Source: a virus. From it: 61,192 bases of DNA. The notes beneath the pieces were generated by a model. That model had not been told where the DNA came from. It ran no database searches and worked only from the letters and a program-made list of their open reading frames with translations. The stretch covers positions 1 to 61,192 of IMG/VR virus record IMGVR_UViG_3300031669_000025. One strand, written 5' to 3'. Below, piece by piece: positions 1 through 9,054 of this stretch; within the stretch, counting starts at the first letter, position 1; the number at the start of each line of letters is the position of its first letter. Made by a program: the position numbers and the translations under genes.

Positions 1-26
1 AATGTTTTATATTTGTTGTTATGTTC
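1..26. repeat. attC-like site, right arm only (cut by window edge)
   Basis: This is the right arm of an integron-like recombination site whose left arm lies outside the window. It nearly repeats the right arm of the complete site ending at 6539: both contain GTTTTATATTTGTTGTTATG. The core box GTTATGTTC (18-26) begins the next cassette. Its exact complement GAACATAAC lies at 199-207, where that cassette's own site begins, as expected for integron cassettes. Confidence 0.6.
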
Positions 27-198
27 TTTTAAAAATGGGGATATGATGCAGTAATGTATCATCGACAAACATAATCTTCTATAACCTCTGGGAATCGGCA
101 CGTTATGGAGTGAAAGAGATGCCAAACTGAAACAGGACGCTAAAAGCCGATATATAGCCGAGTAGGTTGGTCTGGTGCGATAATGCCCCATTTTTATT
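27..198 (+). ncRNA. ORF-less cassette, possible structured RNA
   Basis: This cassette body has no usable open reading frame but looks structured. AAAAATGGGG (31-40) is exactly complementary to CCCCATTTTT (186-195), which would close a long stem that ends in a T-run like a terminator. Inside, ATGATGCA and TGTATCAT flank a GTAA loop (a GNRA-type tetraloop), and GGCA/TGCC and CGGC/GCCG pairs can form. It is visibly more GC-rich than the phage backbone. A small RNA carried as a cassette is my inference; I do not recognise a known RNA family. It could also be a decayed gene. Confidence 0.35.
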
Positions 199-333
199 GA
201 ACATAACGGCTGGCAATAAGAAATGTATGGGATTTAGAAGCAGTAACCTATCCCACTACACGAAATTAAATTAAAGGCACAACTGCACAATTTGGCACTG
301 ACACCCATATATTTTTTATTGTGTGTTATAGCC
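199..333. repeat. attC-like recombination site 2
   Basis: Left box GAACATAAC (199-207), right box GTTATAGCC (325-333). The stem is formed by 214-231 and 304-321 (18 nt, 16 pairs, the two mismatches being G/A that would be G-T wobbles in a folded strand). The unpaired spacer between box and stem is 6 nt on the left and 3 nt on the right, the geometry found at most other sites here. The right box is complementary to 556-564, the end of the next cassette, not to this site's own left box. This is the integron cassette logic, in which the boundary bases travel with the cassette. Confidence 0.75.
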
Positions 334-349
334 AGTTAATTTAAAAACT

Positions 350-553
350 ATGAACAAATTATTACTTACATTGAAAAGAGATTATAACGATTCAATTACT
401 TTAGTCGCAAATAATCACAAAGATTTAGAAGATTACTTACGTTCCAATTATGATTTTCATAAAATAACAGTAAGAGACGATTCTGTTAGTATTGTTGCTC
501 GTGAAGGTTATGAAACAGAGTTTGGAACGCTTGAATGGATACGCCACGTTTAA
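350..553 (+). CDS. Cassette-borne small protein of unknown function
   Basis: A 67-residue protein and the only gene of the cassette bounded by GTTATAGCC (325-333) and GGCTATAAC (556-564). ATG is 24 nt into the cassette after an A/T-rich leader, and the stop is 2 nt before the next site, so the cassette is compact. The sequence is hydrophilic with mixed charge, no signal peptide and no membrane segment. It ends in FGTLEWIRHV. Codons such as CGT, ACG and CGC are used that the phage backbone largely avoids, suggesting a different origin. I recognise no family. Confidence 0.65.
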   Translation: MNKLLLTLKRDYNDSITLVANNHKDLEDYLRSNYDFHKITVRDDSVSIVAREGYETEFGTLEWIRHV

Positions 554-555
554 TT

Positions 556-801
556 GGCTATAACGGACGGGAATAAACGACTTTTAAAAATTATACGATG
601 GAATATACAAAAGCAGATTTAAACTGGTTGATGAGCAAAATGGAATGCACATCAGAACGCTATATGGAAGCGGAAAAAATGATAATTGAGATTATAGATA
701 TGCCTTGGTGGAAGCGTCTATTTTGCGGACGCAAACTACTACGCTTCTTAAAAAGCCGAGACAAGTATAATTTTTAATTGCGTTTATTTATTGTTGTGCT
801 T
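556..801. repeat. attC-like site 3, oversized, with a gene in its loop
   Basis: Left box GGCTATAAC (556-564), right box GTTGTGCTT (793-801). Two stem blocks pair exactly: AATAAACG (572-579) with CGTTTATT (781-788), and TTAAAAATTATAC (584-596) with 765-777. At 246 nt it is much longer than the other sites (65-136 nt) because a 59-codon ORF occupies the loop. The stop codon of that ORF is part of the right stem. The spacers (7 and 4 nt) keep the usual excess of 3 nt on the left. Confidence 0.6.
598..777 (+). CDS. Small basic protein encoded in the loop of an attC-like hairpin
   Basis: A 59-residue ORF (MEYTKADLNW to KSRDKYNF) starting at the ATG just after the left stem and ending in a TAA that belongs to the right stem. 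The C-terminal half contains MPWWKRLFC followed by GRKLLRFLKSR, an amphipathic basic stretch. The compositional coherence and precise fit between the stems suggest a real gene, but it is short and I recognise no family. No Shine-Dalgarno-like sequence is obvious, as is common in Bacteroidota. Confidence 0.5.
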   Translation: MEYTKADLNWLMSKMECTSERYMEAEKMIIEIIDMPWWKRLFCGRKLLRFLKSRDKYNF

Positions 802-821
802 AACGAAGTGGCGTTTTAATG

Positions 822-886
822 AAGCATAACGTATGGTTGTATGATTTCGTTGCTTTTCGCAATGAATTATACAACGTGTTAGTAGC
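822..886. repeat. attC-like recombination site 4 (shortest)
   Basis: Left box AAGCATAAC (822-830), right box GTTAGTAGC (878-886). The stem is 837-853 with 859-874 (one bulged base, two G/A wobbles) around a five-base TTTTC loop. Spacers are 6 nt left and 3 nt right. The left box pairs with GTTGTGCTT (793-801) at 8 of 9 positions, so the cassette between 794 and 830 contains almost nothing but its own ends. The right box is the exact complement of 1496-1504. Confidence 0.75.
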
Positions 887-976
887 TGGCGGTTTAATTA
901 CCCACCACCGCCCGAACGAAGCACTAAAAAAAAGAAAAGCGAAGCGTGGGGATTTTTAATTTTAAAACTAGATATT

Positions 977-1411
977 ATGAAAGATTTTGATTCGATTAAA
1001 GGACTAATTAACAAAGATGCCTTACAAAAAAGCATAGATGCTAACACCGATGGATATGGTGGGGCTTGCGTAAATGTTGCAATAAATGTAATGAAGCATT
1101 TAGACGAGTTTAAGGATGAGTTTAACATTGGTTATAACCCAGACATGACAACACCACACGGCATTATTTGCAAATGTGATGACCAGGGAGGGATTACTGG
1201 CTTTATGGCTGGTGCTGCAAGAAATATAATTGCTAATTGCCACGTTTTAGGATGGAAATTTTACTTGGCTGATACATTAAGTCCATACGATATTGAGAGA
1301 GATGAAGATATTGAAAAAGCGATTAAAAATGTTGTAGATGCTAAACTAGTAAGCTACGATGAAGCAAAAGCATACACTGCTGACTTAATTAAAAGATATA
1401 AATCCAAATAA
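977..1411 (+). CDS. Cassette-borne protein of unknown function
   Basis: A 144-residue, acidic, apparently cytosolic protein, the largest cassette product here. The cassette runs from GTTAGTAGC (878) to GCTACTAAC (1504). The N-terminal third holds CVNVAINVMKHLDEF, and the middle has a Gly/Cys-rich stretch (GIICKCDDQGGITGF) followed by MAGAARNIIANCHVLGW. The C-terminal 40 residues are helical and charged. The start is the ATG after an A/T-rich leader; about 90 nt of cassette precede it. A second reading frame on the opposite strand overlaps but shows no sign of being real. I do not recognise a family. Confidence 0.7.
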   Translation: MKDFDSIKGLINKDALQKSIDANTDGYGGACVNVAINVMKHLDEFKDEFNIGYNPDMTTPHGIICKCDDQGGITGFMAGAARNIIANCHVLGWKFYLADTLSPYDIERDEDIEKAIKNVVDAKLVSYDEAKAYTADLIKRYKSK

Positions 1412-1495
1412 GTTTGAAAAACTTAAAGCGGGTGGGGCTTTTCTTTTTTTGTTCCAATTACGCAGGAACTTTGATACGAGAACTAAACCCCGCTT

Positions 1496-1594
1496 GCTAC
1501 TAACGGTTGGGTGTATGAAACGTAATCTAACCACGAACTTTGATATTAACCACTGAACTATAATAGGTTATGTTTTATACACCTTGTTATGGTT
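1496..1594. repeat. attC-like recombination site 5
   Basis: Left box GCTACTAAC (1496-1504), right box GTTATGGTT (1586-1594). The stem pairs 1510-1529 with 1564-1583 (17 of 20, all three mismatches G against A, hence wobble-compatible). Counting the outer G as unpaired, the spacers are 6 and 3 nt. The right box is the exact complement of AACCATAAC at 1855-1863. Confidence 0.75.
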
Positions 1595-1634
1595 TAGTTA
1601 AAAAATTATTATACAAACTTAAAATAAAAAACAT

Positions 1635-1844
1635 ATGGAAAACAATTTAATGGAAATCGGTAAAAGATTTCATCAACTAAAAAGTGAATTATTACACGGT
1701 GGATACACTGGTGAAATGTTAGAAAATCACATAACAGATGTAATATCTGATGAAATCTTGTCTGAATTAGGTGAGATAGAAAGATATGATGAAGTAAAAA
1801 GAGCGTTAGTTAATATGTTTTTTCTTGGACAACTCTCGAAATAA
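1635..1844 (+). CDS. Cassette-borne small acidic protein, unknown function
   Basis: A 69-residue protein, predicted largely helical and acidic, with no membrane segment. It sits alone in the cassette bounded by GTTATGGTT (1586-1594) and AACCATAAC (1855-1863). The stop codon is 10 nt before the next site. The ATG at 1635 follows a 40-nt A/T-rich leader typical of Bacteroidota genes. An internal Met at codon 6 could also serve as start. I recognise no family. Confidence 0.6.
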   Translation: MENNLMEIGKRFHQLKSELLHGGYTGEMLENHITDVISDEILSELGEIERYDEVKRALVNMFFLGQLSK

Positions 1845-1854
1845 TTTTTTAATT

Positions 1855-1952
1855 AACCATAACGTATTGCAATATGAAACGGTTGCCTTGTAAGACGTTT
1901 CACAATATAGATGCAGTTTTCTGGCAACTGTTTTATATTGCGTGTTATCGGC
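1855..1952. repeat. attC-like recombination site 6
   Basis: This is the clearest site in the window. Left box AACCATAAC (1855-1863), right box GTTATCGGC (1944-1952). The stem is CAATATGAAACGGTTGCC (1870-1887) against 1923-1940, 16 of 18 paired with both mismatches wobble-compatible. Spacers are GTATTG (6 nt) and CGT (3 nt). The loop is about 35 nt. The right box is exactly complementary to GCCGATAAC (2400-2408). Confidence 0.8.
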
Positions 1953-1987
1953 TGCCTTTATTGTTAAATCATTAAAATATCAAATAA

Positions 1988-2395
1988 ATGAAAAGAGAAA
2001 TATTATTTAAAGGGAAATTATCACATTCAAAAGAATGGATTGAAGGCAATTTAATTATTGCACAAAATGGAAAACCTTACATAATTCCATTTGATGTTAT
2101 TGAACCCGATGGGCATCATTTGATTATTGATTCAGATAATCCATTTTGGGTTGATGAAAATACTATTAGTCAATTTATAAACCAAACCGACAAAAATGGT
2201 AAAAAGATTTTTGAAGGCGATTATGATTCAGATGGTAATTGTATAGTTTGGTGCAAAGAATGTAATGGTTTTGAATTTGCTGCAATAGATTTACCAACGA
2301 AAGATATTTGCATCCCATGTCATAGATGCGATGGAAATTTCTTCTTTGGCGACCAAATAAACGACTTTGAGATTGTAGGGAATGTTGCGGATTAA
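1988..2395 (+). CDS. YopX-like protein carried on a cassette
   Basis: A 135-residue protein with the hallmark of the YopX family of phage and mobile-element proteins. It starts MKREILFKGK, has a WIEGNLI stretch, a central DENTISQF, then DKNGKKIFEGDY at about residues 68-79. YopX proteins are widespread on prophages, but their molecular role is unknown. The C-terminal part contains two Cys-x2-Cys pairs (CKEC and CHRC), suggesting a bound metal. This is the last cassette of the array. Its terminal box GCCGATAAC follows the stop by 4 nt and runs directly into the conserved junction with phage backbone. Confidence 0.75.
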   Translation: MKREILFKGKLSHSKEWIEGNLIIAQNGKPYIIPFDVIEPDGHHLIIDSDNPFWVDENTISQFINQTDKNGKKIFEGDYDSDGNCIVWCKECNGFEFAAIDLPTKDICIPCHRCDGNFFFGDQINDFEIVGNVAD

Positions 2396-2399
2396 GGTT

Positions 2400-2441
2400 G
2401 CCGATAACTCGTTTATATATACAGTTCAAAAAATTGAACCA
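2400..2441. other. Cassette array 1 end: attI-like junction motif
   Basis: After the terminal cassette box GCCGATAAC there is no further hairpin. Instead there is a sequence shared with the end of the second array (6709-6751). Both read ATAACT(C/A)GTTTATA, then 9 variable bases, then AAAAAATTGAACCA, with identical total length. Here the variable part creates a small inverted repeat, TTCAAAAAATTGAA. The shared end is best explained as the primary insertion site (attI-like) or as a phage promoter into which cassettes insert. No recombination data exist, so this is inference. Confidence 0.5.
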
Positions 2442-3427: not shown

Positions 3428-3634
3428 ATGAAACATCAATTTAATATTAGAAGAAGAAGCTATGTTTCAGTAATAACTCCAGAAATAGAGTATATTGTAG
3501 AACATAAGAATATAGGTTATAAATCTAACTTTATATCAGCAAAGTTAAGTATGAAACCTACAACAGTAAGTTATATCCTTAAAAGATATACACTTAAAGA
3601 TAAGAATAACAAGTATATAATGCATAATAAATAA
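3428..3634 (+). CDS. Small helix-turn-helix-like protein
   Basis: A 68-residue, strongly basic protein. Residues about 22-50 (IEYIVEHKNIG, then FISAKLSMKPTTVSYILKR) have the spacing of a helix-turn-helix in which a short helix precedes a recognition helix starting at PTTVSYI. That suggests DNA binding, possibly as an early regulator. It shares one base with the DNA polymerase start (TAATG overlap), so the two are co-transcribed. The HTH call is from pattern only. Confidence 0.6.
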   Translation: MKHQFNIRRRSYVSVITPEIEYIVEHKNIGYKSNFISAKLSMKPTTVSYILKRYTLKDKNNKYIMHNK

Positions 3635-5508
3635 TGATTCATTTCATAAGCACACAAAAAATCATAGAAACAGATGAAATAAGAGAATCTACTGTAGAGG
3701 AAGCATTAAATTATCTTAATAATTTAGATATAATTGGATTAGATTTAGAAACTACGGGATTTGATCCATATAAAGATAAAATATTATTAATGCAATTAGG
3801 TGATAGAGAGAATCAATATGTTATAGATACAATTACAGTAGATATTCTTATTTTTAAAGAATTACTAGAAAGTGATAGGTTATTTATAGGTCAAAATATA
3901 AAATTTGATTTAAGATTTTTATTAGTTCAAAAAATTATAGTAAAAGATGTTTATGATACCTATATTGTTGAAGAAATTTTATATAATGGTATTGTAGGAA
4001 TAAGAAAAAGTTTAGATTATATAGCAGAAAGATATTGCAAAGTATTTCTTGATAAATCTATTAGAGGAAATATTCATAGAGAAGGAAATTCTTATAGAGT
4101 TATAAGATATGCAGCTGATGATGTAAAGTATCTACATGAAATTAGAGAGAAACAGTTACTAGATGTATATAAAAAGGATTTAAATAGATCAATAGAACTT
4201 AATAACTTATTTGTTCCAGTTCTTGCCTATGTTGAAATATCTGGATTTACTTTAGATAGTAGCAAGTGGAAAGAAAAAATGAGACAAGATAAAATAGAAT
4301 TAGAATCTAGACTAAATATTTTAAATAATTATATACTTGATAATAAAATAGACCAATTTATAGAGAAACAACTAGATTTATTTAATTCTAATACTACAGT
4401 TACAATAAATTGGAAATCTCCAAAACAAGTTGTAGAATTTCTAAAAATTATAGGTATTGATTCTAGGGAATTAGATAAAGATTCTGGAGAATTAAAATGG
4501 AAAGCAAATGCTACAGTATTACAGAAGAAAATAAGTGAAAATCCTATTATATCTACATTTATAGAGTATGGAGAATATTATAAAAAATGTTCTACTTATG
4601 GGGAGAACTTTTTAAAACAAATCCATCCTATAACTGGAAAATTACATACTAAGTTTCAACAATGGATGAAAACTGGTAGAATGTCTTCAGGTGGGAAGGA
4701 TAAAAGTGCTAATATTGAATATATAAACTTTCAAAATATCCCAGCAGATAGTGAAACTAGAAGTTGTTTTGTTGCTTCTGAAGGTAATATATTAATAGAT
4801 GCAGATTATTCTGGCCAAGAACAAATAGTTTTAGCTAATAAGTCCTTAGACCCAAATATTCTAGAGTTTTATGATAAGAAATTGGGAGATATGCATTCCT
4901 ATATTGCTAAATTATGTTTTAAAGAAGAGTTAGAAGGTATTGAACTCAGTGATGTAAAGAAGTTAAGACCAGATTTAAGACAACTTGCTAAAGCAGCAGG
5001 TTTTGCGATAAATTATGGTGGCAATGGATTTACTATAGCAAACAATTTAAATGTATCTCAAGATTTAGGAGATAAAGTATATGAAGCATATTTTAAAGCA
5101 TTTCCAGGATTAAAGAATTATTTTGATGGTGGATATAAAAATGCTAAAATGAGACATTATATTCTTTATAATGAAGTTACCAGAGATAAATTCTTTATTC
5201 CTTATTCTATGAAGGATGGGGAAATAAAAAGAGCATCAATGAATTTTCCTATACAAGGAACATCAGCTTCAATTACTAAATATGCAGCAATTTTATACTA
5301 TAGAAAATTACTAGAAAGAAATTTACTTTTTAAAATATTTATACCTAATATAATTCATGATGAAATTATACTAGATTGTCCTAAAGAAATAGCAAATGAA
5401 GAAAGTATAGTATTAAAACAATGTATGGAAGATGCAGGAGTAAGATTTAACCAAACTAGAGTTCCATTGTATGCAGAACCATGTATTACAGAATTTTGGA
5501 AACATTAA
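3634..5508 (+). CDS. polA-like: Family A DNA polymerase with 3'-5' exonuclease domain
   Basis: A 624-residue replicative polymerase. The N-terminal proofreading exonuclease has Exo I DLETTGFDP (about residues 37-45), Exo II GQNIKFDLRF and Exo III YAADDVKYL (about 159). The polymerase domain has motif A DADYSGQEQ (about 389), motif B RQLAKAAGFAINYGG (about 449) and motif C HDEIILD (about 575), so all metal-binding acidic residues are present. There is no 5'-3' exonuclease domain; that activity may come from the FEN-like protein at 26350. Length fits phage family A enzymes. The gene lies between the two cassette arrays and overlaps the preceding gene by one base. Confidence 0.95.
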   Translation: MIHFISTQKIIETDEIRESTVEEALNYLNNLDIIGLDLETTGFDPYKDKILLMQLGDRENQYVIDTITVDILIFKELLESDRLFIGQNIKFDLRFLLVQKIIVKDVYDTYIVEEILYNGIVGIRKSLDYIAERYCKVFLDKSIRGNIHREGNSYRVIRYAADDVKYLHEIREKQLLDVYKKDLNRSIELNNLFVPVLAYVEISGFTLDSSKWKEKMRQDKIELESRLNILNNYILDNKIDQFIEKQLDLFNSNTTVTINWKSPKQVVEFLKIIGIDSRELDKDSGELKWKANATVLQKKISENPIISTFIEYGEYYKKCSTYGENFLKQIHPITGKLHTKFQQWMKTGRMSSGGKDKSANIEYINFQNIPADSETRSCFVASEGNILIDADYSGQEQIVLANKSLDPNILEFYDKKLGDMHSYIAKLCFKEELEGIELSDVKKLRPDLRQLAKAAGFAINYGGNGFTIANNLNVSQDLGDKVYEAYFKAFPGLKNYFDGGYKNAKMRHYILYNEVTRDKFFIPYSMKDGEIKRASMNFPIQGTSASITKYAAILYYRKLLERNLLFKIFIPNIIHDEIILDCPKEIANEESIVLKQCMEDAGVRFNQTRVPLYAEPCITEFWKH

Positions 5509-5523
5509 TTAAATAAACTAATT

Positions 5524-5820
5524 ATGGGACAAGCAGTAAGTAAAAAGATCGTAGAATATCTAACCTACGAGGAGTTCAAGCAGCAACTGAAACTTCTCGA
5601 AACTACATCAACAACCAATTTTTTCAGGGATGTTCCAGTATACATTTCCAGTGATGGTAAAGGATGTATTATTGCTCTAATAGGTAACTTTATTTATTTT
5701 AATAAAGAGGATATTCTTATTGTAGATGAAATAGGTGATAATCCCCTTAAAGCCATCACCAAGGAGCAGTTCAATGAGGACTATACTCCCATTGAGGAGA
5801 TAAAGGTTAACCCAGTTTAA
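5524..5820 (+). CDS. Hypothetical protein with host-like codon use
   Basis: A 98-residue protein starting 15 nt after the polymerase stop. The N-terminal region LTYEEFKQQLKLL is helical. The middle is beta-rich (VPVYISSDGKGCIIALIGNFIYF) and the end repeats the phrase KAITKEQFNEDYTPIEEI. Codons such as CTC, GAG, CAG and ACC, rare in the neighbouring polymerase gene, are common here, hinting at recent acquisition. It ends just before the 17-nt repeat that flanks cassette array 2. No family recognised. Confidence 0.65.
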   Translation: MGQAVSKKIVEYLTYEEFKQQLKLLETTSTTNFFRDVPVYISSDGKGCIIALIGNFIYFNKEDILIVDEIGDNPLKAITKEQFNEDYTPIEEIKVNPV

Positions 5821-5885: not shown

Positions 5886-5925
5886 TTTACGTATAATTAG
5901 TATATAATGTTCATTAAAAATTGTA

Positions 5926-6058
5926 CCCTAACGTTAAGTATATGGCAAGGTGGGGATTAAAACGTGCTGCCCTATCGAGCCAAAAGAAAGTAAATTAACA
6001 GCACAAATATTGCAAACTGGAATACGCCCCCAATTTGCTATATACATTGTTAGGGTGC
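5926..6058. repeat. attC-like recombination site 7 (left end of array 2)
   Basis: Left box CCCTAAC (5926-5932), right box GTTAGGGTGC (6049-6058). The stem is 5938-5955 with 6028-6045 (15 of 18). Spacers are 5 and 3 nt. The left box follows AAAAATTGTACC, which resembles the AAAAAATTGAACC at the right end of the array, so the array appears to sit inside a short imperfect direct repeat of backbone sequence. The 10-base right box is exactly complementary to 6404-6413. Confidence 0.75.
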
Positions 6059-6074
6059 GTTTATTCTTATTAAA

Positions 6075-6401
6075 ATGGAAGCAAAAGAAGAAAAATTTAA
6101 AATAGAGGTAAGATTCTCAAAAAATAGACACTACCCTGAATATGGAAGTGAAGCATATAGTATTGAAAGCCATTCTATTTATATTCCGTATGGTAAAAGA
6201 TTTGATTTTAAAAATAGTAGCAGGGCAATAGAATTTATAAAAGGCAGAATTGATTCAAAAGTTTTAGAACATTTCGATTCTGTTTGCATAACAAAATGGC
6301 GTGGTTACGGAGGAACTTACGAATATTTGAAGGAATGTAAAGAAAAAAGCGACACCAAACCAATTGATAAAGAATTTGCTGAAAGTATACTGTTTTTTTA
6401 A
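6075..6401 (+). CDS. Cassette-borne protein of unknown function
   Basis: A 108-residue hydrophilic protein in the cassette bounded by GTTAGGGTGC (6049-6058) and GCACCCTAAC (6404-6413). It starts MEAKEEKFKIEVRFSKNRH and contains two Tyr/Ser-rich beta-like stretches (YSIESHSIYIPYG) and a Gly-Thr-Tyr stretch (KWRGYGGTYEYLKE). The start lies 25 nt into the cassette after an A/T-rich leader. The stop is 2 nt before the next site. It has no signal peptide or membrane segment, and I recognise no family. Confidence 0.65.
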   Translation: MEAKEEKFKIEVRFSKNRHYPEYGSEAYSIESHSIYIPYGKRFDFKNSSRAIEFIKGRIDSKVLEHFDSVCITKWRGYGGTYEYLKECKEKSDTKPIDKEFAESILFF

Positions 6402-6403
6402 AT

Positions 6404-6539
6404 GCACCCTAACGGTTGCAAATATAAAATCGGTGGGATTTTACTCACCGACTTTGATAAATTGAATTAATGTAACTTAAACAGACTGGGCTAACAAGAC
6501 CACTAACACCCCACTGTTTTATATTTGTTGTTATGTGGC
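6404..6539. repeat. attC-like recombination site 8
   Basis: Left box GCACCCTAAC (6404-6413), right box GTTATGTGGC (6530-6539). The left stem, 6420-6437, pairs with 6509-6526 through ten perfect A/T pairs, then one bulge and a GTGGG block. Spacers are GGTTGC (6 nt) and GTT (3 nt). The right arm nearly repeats the fragment at 1-26, so closely related sites occur in both arrays. The right box is exactly complementary to 6709-6718. Confidence 0.8.
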
Positions 6540-6549
6540 GTTAATTATT

Positions 6550-6717
6550 ATGGACTGCCAACGACCAGTAAAAAACAAAGAAACAAACCAATGGGAAGTA
6601 TGGGATTTTGCTTACGAAGAAAATGGCGAAAGATACTATGAACTTCATAAGTTTTTTACATACAAAGAGGCTATTGATTTTTGGAAAGTTAGAAATCAGA
6701 AACTTAATGCCACATAA
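6550..6717 (+). CDS. Cassette-borne small protein, unknown function
   Basis: A 55-residue protein (MDCQRPVKNKE to RNQKLNAT). I chose the ATG at 6550 over an in-frame GTG at 6535, because the GTG lies inside the recombination box that is shared between cassettes. The aromatic-rich middle (WEVWDFAYEENGERYYELHKFF) and the end FTYKEAIDFWKVRN look like a compact alpha/beta domain. The stop codon TAA is itself part of the terminal cassette box GCCACATAAC, so the cassette has no spare sequence at its end. Family unknown. Confidence 0.6.
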   Translation: MDCQRPVKNKETNQWEVWDFAYEENGERYYELHKFFTYKEAIDFWKVRNQKLNAT

Positions 6718-6751
6718 CTAGTTTATAACCTTAGCTAAAAAAATTGAACCA
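6709..6751. other. Cassette array 2 end: attI-like junction motif
   Basis: The terminal box GCCACATAAC is followed by TAGTTTATA, nine variable bases and AAAAAATTGAACCA, matching the end of array 1 in both sequence and spacing. If both cassettes are removed in silico, the left and right junctions join as AAAAATTGTACCCTAA followed by CTAGTTTATA, a plausible intact target. Read on the - strand, this motif precedes the array just as attI does in integrons, which would put the cassette ORFs in the orientation opposite to the classical one. Confidence 0.5.
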
Positions 6752-7448: not shown

Positions 7449-7756
7449 GTTTCTTAAATAAATATGTAAAAGCAGTAGAAGATTATTATGGTAAACCTAT
7501 GATATATACACCTCAAGATGGAAAGGGAAGAAATGCAAGAATTGACTTAGAAATGGTTAGAATGCTAATTTTACTTTTAAATGAAGAAGAGGGATTAAAA
7601 TACAGTGAAATAGCTCTTTTATTACCCTTTAAAAAGAAAAGATTAGCTCTCCGTAATGATTCTATAATTGCATCTGATTTATATAGATTAGATAGGTTTT
7701 TTAGAAAAAGATATAGTGAAATTTTACAAACTATTCCTAAAATTATTATAGAATGA
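7445..7756 (+). CDS. Possible DnaA C-terminal-like (DNA-binding) protein
   Basis: A 103-residue basic protein. Residues about 35-85 (DLEMVRMLILLL, GLKYSEIALLLPFKKKRLALRNDS, SDLYRLDRFFRKRY) recall the C-terminal DNA-binding helices of DnaA, where a helix-turn-helix (YSEIALLL) is followed by a basic signature and a helix with a regular Arg pattern. Such a protein could recognise the phage origin. It overlaps both neighbours by four bases, including the helicase gene, consistent with a replication role. The family assignment is tentative. Confidence 0.55.
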   Translation: MSFLNKYVKAVEDYYGKPMIYTPQDGKGRNARIDLEMVRMLILLLNEEEGLKYSEIALLLPFKKKRLALRNDSIIASDLYRLDRFFRKRYSEILQTIPKIIIE

Positions 7757-9054
7757 CAAGAGAAGAAATACAACAACAAGCATTAAATATTGCTAAAGAA
7801 CATAATTATACTGGTATTCTATGTTTAGATATGGGTAGTGGTAAGTCTAAAGTAGCAATAGATTGTATTAAACAGGGTAGTTTTAAAAATATTCTTATTA
7901 CTAGTCCTAGAACTAATTTAAAAGAGATGTGGAGAAAGGAACTAGCTAAATGGGGCATAAAAGACTATAGAGTTGGCATAGATCCTACAGAAATTGTACC
8001 TAAATTTGATAAAATACTATGGAGATATAATGATATTTTTCTTAATATAACTATTGAAAATATACAAACTTGTTACAAATGGACTAAAGAAAAAATTAAA
8101 CAATTTGATTTAATAATTTGTGATGAAGTTCATTTAATAGCAACTCTAGAATATGGTCAATTAATTATTAATGCTAGAGAACTTAATATTCCTGTTATTG
8201 GACTTACTGGAACTCTTAACTTAGAAGATACTTTTAAGAAAGAATTTTACAATACACATATTCCAATATTACTTGAATATTATGATAGTGCAAAAGATGG
8301 ATTAATTAATAAGAGGCACTATTATATTTATAAGTATAAGTTAGATGATAGTTATAAGATAATAACAGGTAGTAAGAAAAAGAAATGGCAAGTAGGAGAA
8401 TTATCTCAATATTCTTACTTAACAGAACAAATCAAAAAAGGTCAAAAATTAATGGCTCAAACAGGAAGTCAAGATTGGTTTAAAGATGCCGCAGATTGGT
8501 TTTGGAAAGGTAATGGAACTACTACAGAAAAGAATGCAGCAAGAATTTATTTACAAGCTATTAAGTATAGAAAAGAATTTCTATGGAATTTGAGTAGCAG
8601 TGCAGATATTGCTGTTAGAATAAAAAATAGAATTCTTGATACAAAAACTGAGAATAAAGTATTACTATTTTCTGAATTAACTACTCAAGCAGAGAAACTT
8701 TCAGCATATTCTATCCACAGTAAACAAGATGAAGACACTAATAAAGAACTTCTTCATATGTTTGATAGTGGTAATATTAAAGAATTAAGTGCTGTTAGAA
8801 GTCTTTCATTAGGTCTTAATTTAGTTGGGGCAAATTGGGCTATTTTAGAAAGTTTTAATAGTAGTTCTACTGATATACTACAAAAAATGGGTAGAACAAA
8901 CCGTTTAGATACTAATGAGGTAGCTAATATTGTAATTATTGTTCCTGTAGAAACACAATCAGAAACTTGGTTTAATAAATTTATTGAGGATATAAATGAG
9001 AGAGACCCTGATATGGCCGTTAGTTATATTAATTCTATTAATGAAATTATATAA
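7753..9054 (+). CDS. SNF2-like superfamily 2 DNA helicase/ATPase
   Basis: A 433-residue ATPase. Motif I (Walker A) is DMGSGKSKVAID at about residues 26-37, motif Ia TSPRTNL, and motif II (Walker B) DEVH at about 124-127. Motif III is GLTGT. In the C-terminal RecA-like lobe, LGLNLVGANWAIL is motif V and QKMGRTNRLD (about 377) is motif VI. The arrangement fits the SNF2/helicase class that many crAss-like phages carry in the replication operon. It starts inside the previous gene (ATGA) and shares a base with the next. Confidence 0.9.
   Translation: MTREEIQQQALNIAKEHNYTGILCLDMGSGKSKVAIDCIKQGSFKNILITSPRTNLKEMWRKELAKWGIKDYRVGIDPTEIVPKFDKILWRYNDIFLNITIENIQTCYKWTKEKIKQFDLIICDEVHLIATLEYGQLIINARELNIPVIGLTGTLNLEDTFKKEFYNTHIPILLEYYDSAKDGLINKRHYYIYKYKLDDSYKIITGSKKKKWQVGELSQYSYLTEQIKKGQKLMAQTGSQDWFKDAADWFWKGNGTTTEKNAARIYLQAIKYRKEFLWNLSSSADIAVRIKNRILDTKTENKVLLFSELTTQAEKLSAYSIHSKQDEDTNKELLHMFDSGNIKELSAVRSLSLGLNLVGANWAILESFNSSSTDILQKMGRTNRLDTNEVANIVIIVPVETQSETWFNKFIEDINERDPDMAVSYINSINEII

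Follow-up and report, generated by a model that had tools for sequence, protein, structure and literature searches.

Evidence for two arrays of integron-type cassettes with mirrored polarity in a crAss-like phage contig

The IMG/VR virus record IMGVR_UViG_3300031669_000025, analyzed here over its 61,192 nucleotides (nt) and referred to as the window, begins with a row of short genes separated by long hairpins. The locus raises the question of whether these are gene cassettes of the integron type and whether phages acquire and exchange them site-specifically. An earlier note, made from the sequence alone, interpreted the locus as an integron-like array of cassettes carried by a crAss-like phage. 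This description is supported. The window quite probably carries two arrays of integron-type cassettes on a crAss-like phage, with units that would move by means of a recombinase acting in trans. The polarity of the unit however is mirrored, the second array had been missed, and attC clusters in phages were already published. The assignment to a crAss-like phage draws support from virion and PolA proteins that are distantly homologous to those of Crassvirales: a 1192 amino acid (aa) structural protein matches crAss-like phages at 27%–30% identity and the PolA sequence has 37% identity to that of Steigviridae cr108_1. The closest phage relative by PolA is contig G001 (49%).

The six pairs of self-complementary cassette ends reported for the array at the contig start (array 1) are all present (Table 1). 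Five pairs match at 9 of 9 positions and the pair at 793/822 matches at 8 of 9. Exact GTT-9-mer pairs number five in the first 2450 bases, compared with 0.35 expected in first-order Markov sequence. Over several phages, 40 of 43 hairpin sites have a partner at the end of their own cassette at the 8/9 level and 27 of 43 at 9/9, compared with means of 10.0 and 2.2 partners when the R boxes are permuted among the 43 sites. The second array (array 2, two cassettes, positions 5924–6718) is interior and lies between polA (3634–5508, a PHROG DNA polymerase match) and a helicase gene (7753–9054). It consists of two hairpins and two genes, both of its end pairs are fully complementary, and its left phage junction is the AAC at 5930–5932. 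The hairpins are real; in the window seven sites are complete (six that are included in the covariance model R1 described below, and a long site at 556–801) and one is cut by the contig start. The window thus has the properties of a cluster of attC sites lacking an integrase (CALIN), i.e. at least two attC-type sites (R′′/L′′/L′/R′, imperfect hairpin), here seven complete ones in two arrays, with R′ complementary to R′′ of the same cassette.

Nucleotide composition also sets the arrays apart, as previously stated for array 1. The observed/expected ratio of CpG is 1.15 in array 1 and 0.81 in array 2. The backbone has a ratio of 0.10, and its values stay at or below 0.29 in every 2.4-kb stretch. 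Because CpG is near-absent in the backbone but normal in the arrays, the cassettes are foreign DNA. The depletion to 0.10 is extreme and is found throughout the backbone. Since array 1 abuts the contig start and has a composition unlike that of the phage, it could be a contig-end chimera of phage and bacterial integron. Array 2 however is interior, the attI-like core at the end is common to both arrays, and the same structure is present in the complete genomes of isolated Cellulophaga phages. The interior array and the isolate genomes led to rejection of the chimera, which is left with hardly any probability.

The hairpins show conserved pairing and a conserved strand asymmetry. In 13 sites, taken from the window and from contig G002, the left arm pairs in register with the right one. 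The left spacer is usually 5–6 nt long and the right one 3 nt; the earlier figures of 6 and 3 nt are true of most sites. A plain MAFFT alignment was made of 11 sites, taken from the window and a second phage; pairing holds in 97.9% of its cells, and in 9 of the 13 pairs both partners vary. Covariation is 0.842, compared with 0.204 in shuffled alignments and at most 0.175 with slid partners, and two pairs are kept as G.U, in 10 and 9 of the 11 sites. The arms of 34 sites, drawn from several phages, contain 82 mismatches; 61 of them are G.T wobbles when read on the coding strand, and none is a wobble on the opposite strand. The coding strand is the more stable one in 26 of the 34 (mean arm energy −5.7 vs. 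−4.5 kcal/mol). A conserved hairpin asymmetry selects the recombining strand in attC sites; in the present sites the strand so marked is the coding strand.

The covariance model of the hairpins, R1, was trained on the window and G002. Within the window it matches the two arrays only, and it finds sites in other phages with E-values down to 5e-11. No R1 match was found in 27 polA-related loci (486 kb, partly crAss-like), in G001, or in the 65 kb examined of the crAss phage phi14:2; such arrays therefore look rare among crAss-like phages near polA. An Rfam search of the arrays gave no match. The R1 results bear on a rival view, in which the hairpins simply terminate transcription or punctuate operons and gene content is altered by recombination, homologous or illegitimate, between intergenic sequences that resemble each other. 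The hairpins are indeed intergenic and leader sequences are held in common by G002 and the phage LR745206. The earlier note had named hairpins throughout the genome as an observation that would speak for terminators, but R1 finds them neither elsewhere in the window nor in the polA-related contigs, of which 26 were covered. In addition, they are on the 5′ side of genes and may include the start codon, and the breakpoints described below argue further against the proposal, which is highly improbable.

Arrays of the same type were reached by means of sequence patterns, blastn and R1. They are found in the IMG/VR contigs G002 (72 kb, with portal and terminase families) and G003 (54 kb), in contigs G005–G007, in two huge phages (LR745206 and LR756500, 635 and 462 kb), in Polaribacter phage P12002L, in a Rhodobacteraceae-labelled phage (L036), and in the Cellulophaga isolates phi18:3, phi13:2, phi46:3 and phi19:3. 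The huge phages, P12002L and the Cellulophaga isolates are unrelated Bacteroidota phages. The cargo in the window consists of small genes without assigned function and one YopX-like gene; outside the window it includes D12 adenine and C5 cytosine methyltransferases as well as YopX. Comparison of a methyltransferase cassette protein with genome contigs gave no confirmed relative, and plasmid searches with the arrays gave short unrelated matches only. A nearly identical hairpin and 5′ leader (CAGCACTAAATTTAATTT...) is found ahead of different genes in two unrelated phages (L021 1319–1450; L034 14996–15130).

Comparison of related phages shows gain, loss and exchange of complete units, and the breakpoints fall inside TAAC. 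G005 and G007 are near-identical over the region compared (adjacent blocks of 3.3 and 3.5 kb with 99.5% and 99.2% identity, respectively). In G005 the site is empty and TATTAAACCTAAC is directly followed by AATGTTATAAG (longer right side AATGTTATAAGAAACATTCAAAAAATTGAACC). At this point G007 has a 743-bp insertion composed of a hairpin, GTTAGGCAC, an open reading frame (ORF) of 218 aa and GTGCCTAAC, after which AATGTTATAAG follows. The ORF is termed methyltransferase-like from a DPPY motif recognized by eye. The two ends of this event have only six bases in common, CCTAAC, and there is no target duplication. At a second attI-like site the last cassettes of G005 and G007 differ, and identity resumes at TAAC. 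Similarly, the last cassette is a different one in each of the four Cellulophaga isolates, and identity begins exactly at AACAATGTTATATAAC with a common downstream region. In contig G002 the two ends overlap, but one complete 1209-bp cassette (cytosine methyltransferase) is present in only one of them; the breakpoint overlap is 5 bp, TAACG, and an assembly from a separate dataset stops at the same cassette-less junction. With only 5–6 nt in common, the junctions can be attributed neither to an assembler k-mer nor to homologous recombination, and the recurrence of breakpoints at the same three bases also argues against recombination between similar intergenic sequences. The exchange of whole cassettes with exact breakpoints, which the earlier note had proposed to look for, is thus found, though for related arrays and not for those of the window itself.

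The same comparisons define the mobile unit. A 371-bp unit (99.2% identity) is present in phi13:2 and phi19:3 with different neighbors and an AAC boundary on both sides. As the shared block extends from AAC and the hairpin up to the next AAC, the upstream hairpin travels with the gene and the downstream one does not. In arrays with ends inspected by eye, the right end is a bare AAC without hairpin, and a hairpin is present at most left ends. The longest ORF is in the sense direction in 41 of 42 cassettes, its stop codon is usually at most 20 nt from AAC, and its start lies within the hairpin in 10 of 42. From the movement events, the bare AAC at the right end, the ORF starts in hairpins and the stops abutting AAC, it follows that the mobile unit is hairpin-GTT-gene-AAC, the mirror of the textbook cassette. 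The boundaries previously assigned, GTT-gene-AAC-hairpin, are therefore replaced by a unit with AAC at both ends and the hairpin on the 5′ side of the gene.

Insertion directly after TAAC, a hairpin near one end, fixed orientation and no target duplication are also expected of non-autonomous elements moved by an IS200/IS605-type HUH (Y1) transposase, which would insert as single strands 3′ of TAAC. The targets of IS200/IS605 elements are fixed. However, the units here have AAC at both ends, and the 9-nt ends vary by unit yet stay self-complementary, which argues against fixed ends. The units are also arranged head to tail with a two-armed AAC...GTT hairpin at each junction, and to our knowledge IS200/IS605 elements form no arrays. 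Such elements are a quite improbable explanation.

The units of integron type are inserted between one another or at a conserved docking site. Both arrays in the window end rightward in AACT(C/A)GTTTATA followed by TTCAAAAAATTGAACC, exact or degenerate, and the exact core occurs twice in the window, in both cases at an array end, compared with 0.14 expected. Over the phages the end pattern is AACNNNKTTATA-N7-TTCAAAAAAYTGAA, which can also be written AAC-NNN-KTTATA-N7-TTCAAAAAAYTGAA. As described above, this attI-like sequence is empty in one phage and filled in a near-identical sister. On the other strand it reads TATAAAC-GA-G/TTA in the window and G002, with the slash at the point of insertion, and there resembles the L box and R box of attI, with classical insertion geometry and the genes facing the site. 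No match to the narrow form of the pattern was found among 84,980 genomes of bacteria and archaea. G002 has a second attI-like sequence, a degenerate one, TAACTATGTTATAATGTCAGGTCAAAAAATTGCACC (L023 15053–15090), which lies after an ORF without a recognizable hairpin.

In G002, G005 and the Cellulophaga phages, a conserved ORF of 77–78 aa comes immediately after the attI-like site (L038 6693–6929; L004 478–711; L047, where it is on the minus strand, 36 nt after position 2401). Two of the copies have 40% identity over 58 aa. The product may be a DNA-binding accessory protein. An 1887-bp block with two methyltransferase-like ORFs and its own attI-like copy (L049 743–2629) is present in G007 and absent from G005. 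It has a short direct repeat, AAATAAAAAGATTA, at its ends, and the docking site itself may therefore be mobile.

Genes in complete integrons read away from attI. Here they read toward the attI-like site, so that a promoter located there cannot drive expression of the array. Expression would rather come from read-through of upstream phage genes or from promoters in the hairpin leaders, TATATTTG being present in several right arms. This sequence is frequent in the right arms of the hairpins and fits the Bacteroidota −7 promoter element TAnnTTTG (window 6515–6536; L035 16785 and 17150).

A route for the movement can be proposed. The mobile unit would comprise the attC-like hairpin site, of which the coding strand is the better folder, the R′ box GTTNNNNNN, a short gene and the complementary R′′ box NNNNNNAAC. 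A tyrosine recombinase acting in trans, most likely the integron integrase of a Bacteroidota host, would fold the coding strand, and a circular cassette would be joined between AA and C to the attI-like site of the phage. Single-strand recombination and circular intermediates are thus presumed. The benefit may be fast access to accessory genes, which in other phages are often DNA methyltransferases that would shield phage DNA from restriction. A host enzyme is the simplest inference and is supported by published work, in which the attC2 site of P12002L, a site that may correspond to one of the R1 matches in that phage, recombined with IntI1 in E. coli (Qi et al. 2023, PMC9892861).

Several observations weigh against this interpretation. 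The mirrored polarity departs from textbook integrons. The window's own loci have no close relative and movement was shown for the same kind of array in other phages, while the Cellulophaga arrays lack a clean AAC junction at their left ends. The integron integrase model TIGR02249 had no match at E 0.01 in 13 phage records, the window being a fragment, and a tyrosine recombinase (PF00589) was not found in G002, G003, G005–G007, P12002L or the two huge phages, some of which are fragments. Very few complete integrons were reported in Bacteroidetes by IntegronFinder 2.0 (PMC9024848), so that a host integrase is not a given.

A recombinase other than IntI and dedicated to the system, for example the tyrosine recombinase of the Cellulophaga phages or an unrecognized host enzyme, would make the arrays integron-like but not integrons. 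All four Cellulophaga isolates have a PF00589 gene without a TIGR02249 match (L042–L045, 7256–8545), which comes next after the 78-aa ORF that adjoins the attI-like site, and the scarcity of complete integrons in Bacteroidetes (PMC9024848) is in agreement with such an enzyme. It has no PDB sequence match. However, among the array-bearing phages searched PF00589 is limited to the Cellulophaga group (the array-less G001 has one too), the enzyme resembles ordinary Bacteroidota phage integrases and has a repressor gene nearby, as is expected of a lysogeny integrase, and IntI1 is reported to act on a P12002L site (PMC9892861). A dedicated enzyme is thus rather unlikely. A broader proposal is a mirror-image integron-like system specific to Bacteroidota phages, with 5′-hairpin cassettes, a dedicated attI-like site (a TTCAAAAAAYTGAA hairpin, often with the 78-aa ORF next to it), a recombinase different from known integron integrases and an anti-restriction gene pool that extends across unrelated phages. 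This is put forward as a tentative possibility.

The preferred reading, integron-type cassettes moved in trans, does not constitute a new category, since CALIN were published for virulent phages, e.g. P12002L (Qi et al. 2023, PMC9892861). The published clusters and those described here are alike in their tandem small genes between attC hairpins, DNA methyltransferase cargo and lack of intI in the phage, and P12002L carries sites detected by R1. In its available part that paper makes no mention of crAss-like phages, a mirrored unit, a common attI-like site or an empty/filled comparison; it describes attC sites of divergent direction in P12002L and suggests that off-target or illegitimate recombination brought the clusters into phage genomes. 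Like classical arrays (class 1, Vibrio superintegron), the phage arrays have single-gene cassettes, self-complementary R′/R′′ boxes that travel with the cassette, an imperfect hairpin with conserved strand asymmetry, and insertion at a simple site. The classical unit G/TT-gene-AAC-hairpin however reads away from attI, whereas the phage unit hairpin-GTT-gene-AAC/ reads toward the attI-like site, and no IntI was found in the phages. In the “reverse” integrons of Treponema (PMC3607928) the integrase and cassettes are likewise transcribed in the same direction, but there intI is transcribed toward attI with the cassettes on the other side, whereas the phage cassettes themselves point toward the attI-like end.

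As far as the searched literature shows, the crAss-like carrier, the mirrored unit, the docking site common to unrelated phages and the empty-versus-filled comparisons are new; the search likewise turned up no report of cassette arrays in crAss-like phages, in agreement with the earlier note. The results indicate that integron-type cassettes in phages are not dead fragments but are acquired and reshuffled at specific sites. The insertion site and unit polarity are now directly assayable, and counter-restriction genes could in this concrete way come to be shared among Bacteroidota phages that are unrelated to each other. The question raised is which recombinase acts, given that none is found in array phages except the Cellulophaga group and that integrons are reportedly rare in Bacteroidetes.

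Table 1. Positions of array features in the window
Feature	Position	Strand	Evidence
Truncated hairpin site, right arm with R′ box GTTATGTTC (18–26)	1–26	+	R1 16.3 bits, E 0.18, 5′-truncated match
Cassette 1 body, GTTATGTTC...GAACATAAC	18–207	+	Ends self-complementary 9/9
attC-like hairpin site 1	199–333	+	R1 75.1 bits, E 2e-15; site within R1 training set
Cassette 2 gene, 67 aa, no assigned function	350–553	+	No Pfam or PHROG match; cassette ends 325–333/556–564
Long hairpin site, 246 nt	556–801	+	DNA folding z = −4.13, 0/200 shuffles as good
Gene-less 38-nt remnant between GTTGTGCTT and AAGCATAAC	793–830	+	8/9 pairing
attC-like hairpin site 3	822–886	+	R1 50.3 bits
Cassette 4 gene, 144 aa, no assigned function	977–1411	+	Cassette ends 878–886/1496–1504 match 9/9
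attC-like hairpin site 4	1496–1594	+	R1 70.5 bits
Cassette 5 gene, 69 aa, no assigned function	1635–1844	+	Ends 1586–1594/1855–1863 match 9/9
attC-like hairpin site 5	1855–1952	+	R1 63.5 bits
Cassette 6 gene, 135 aa, YopX-like phage protein	1988–2395	+	phrog_8684 E 1.5e-17; cassette ends 1944–1952/2400–2408 match 9/9
attI-like end of array 1, AACTCGTTTATATATACAGTTCAAAAAATTGAA	2406–2438	.	Fits pattern beside arrays, or empty, in other phages
attC-like hairpin, array 2 first site	5924–6057	+	R1 68.4 bits
Array 2 cassette gene, 108 aa, no assigned function	6075–6401	+	Ends GTTAGGGTG / CACCCTAAC, 9/9
attC-like hairpin, array 2 second site	6405–6538	+	R1 65.4 bits
Array 2 last cassette gene, 55 aa, no assigned function	6550–6717	+	Ends GTTATGTGG / CCACATAAC, 9/9
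attI-like end of array 2, degenerate, AACTAGTTTATAACCTTAGCTAAAAAAATTGAACC	6716–6750	.	Core shared with array 1 end

Of the truncated site at the contig start, 22 bases are identical to the site at 6515–6536. Cassette 1 has no sense ORF of at least 40 aa in the ORF list, and one antisense frame of 63 aa is open. The stop codon of the cassette 2 gene is 11 nt upstream of the AAC at the cassette end (564). The long site that follows has a perfect 13-nt inner stem (584–596/765–777). Its stem-loop wholly encloses a 59-aa ORF (598–777), and the gene-less remnant comes next.

The cassette 4 protein matches phrog_9822 at E 0.0031, and a single-sequence AlphaFold model of it has a mean pLDDT of 52. A Tad4-like (Thoeris inhibitor) function for this protein was considered and rejected, as the Pfam Tad4 match (E 0.083) is below the cut-off. 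A site like hairpin site 4 is present in the 462-kb phage. The match of the cassette 6 protein to YopX itself (E 0.0014) is under the Pfam cut-off. Directly before array 2, at 5524–5820, there is a 98-aa ORF whose composition looks different from that of the neighboring phage genes.

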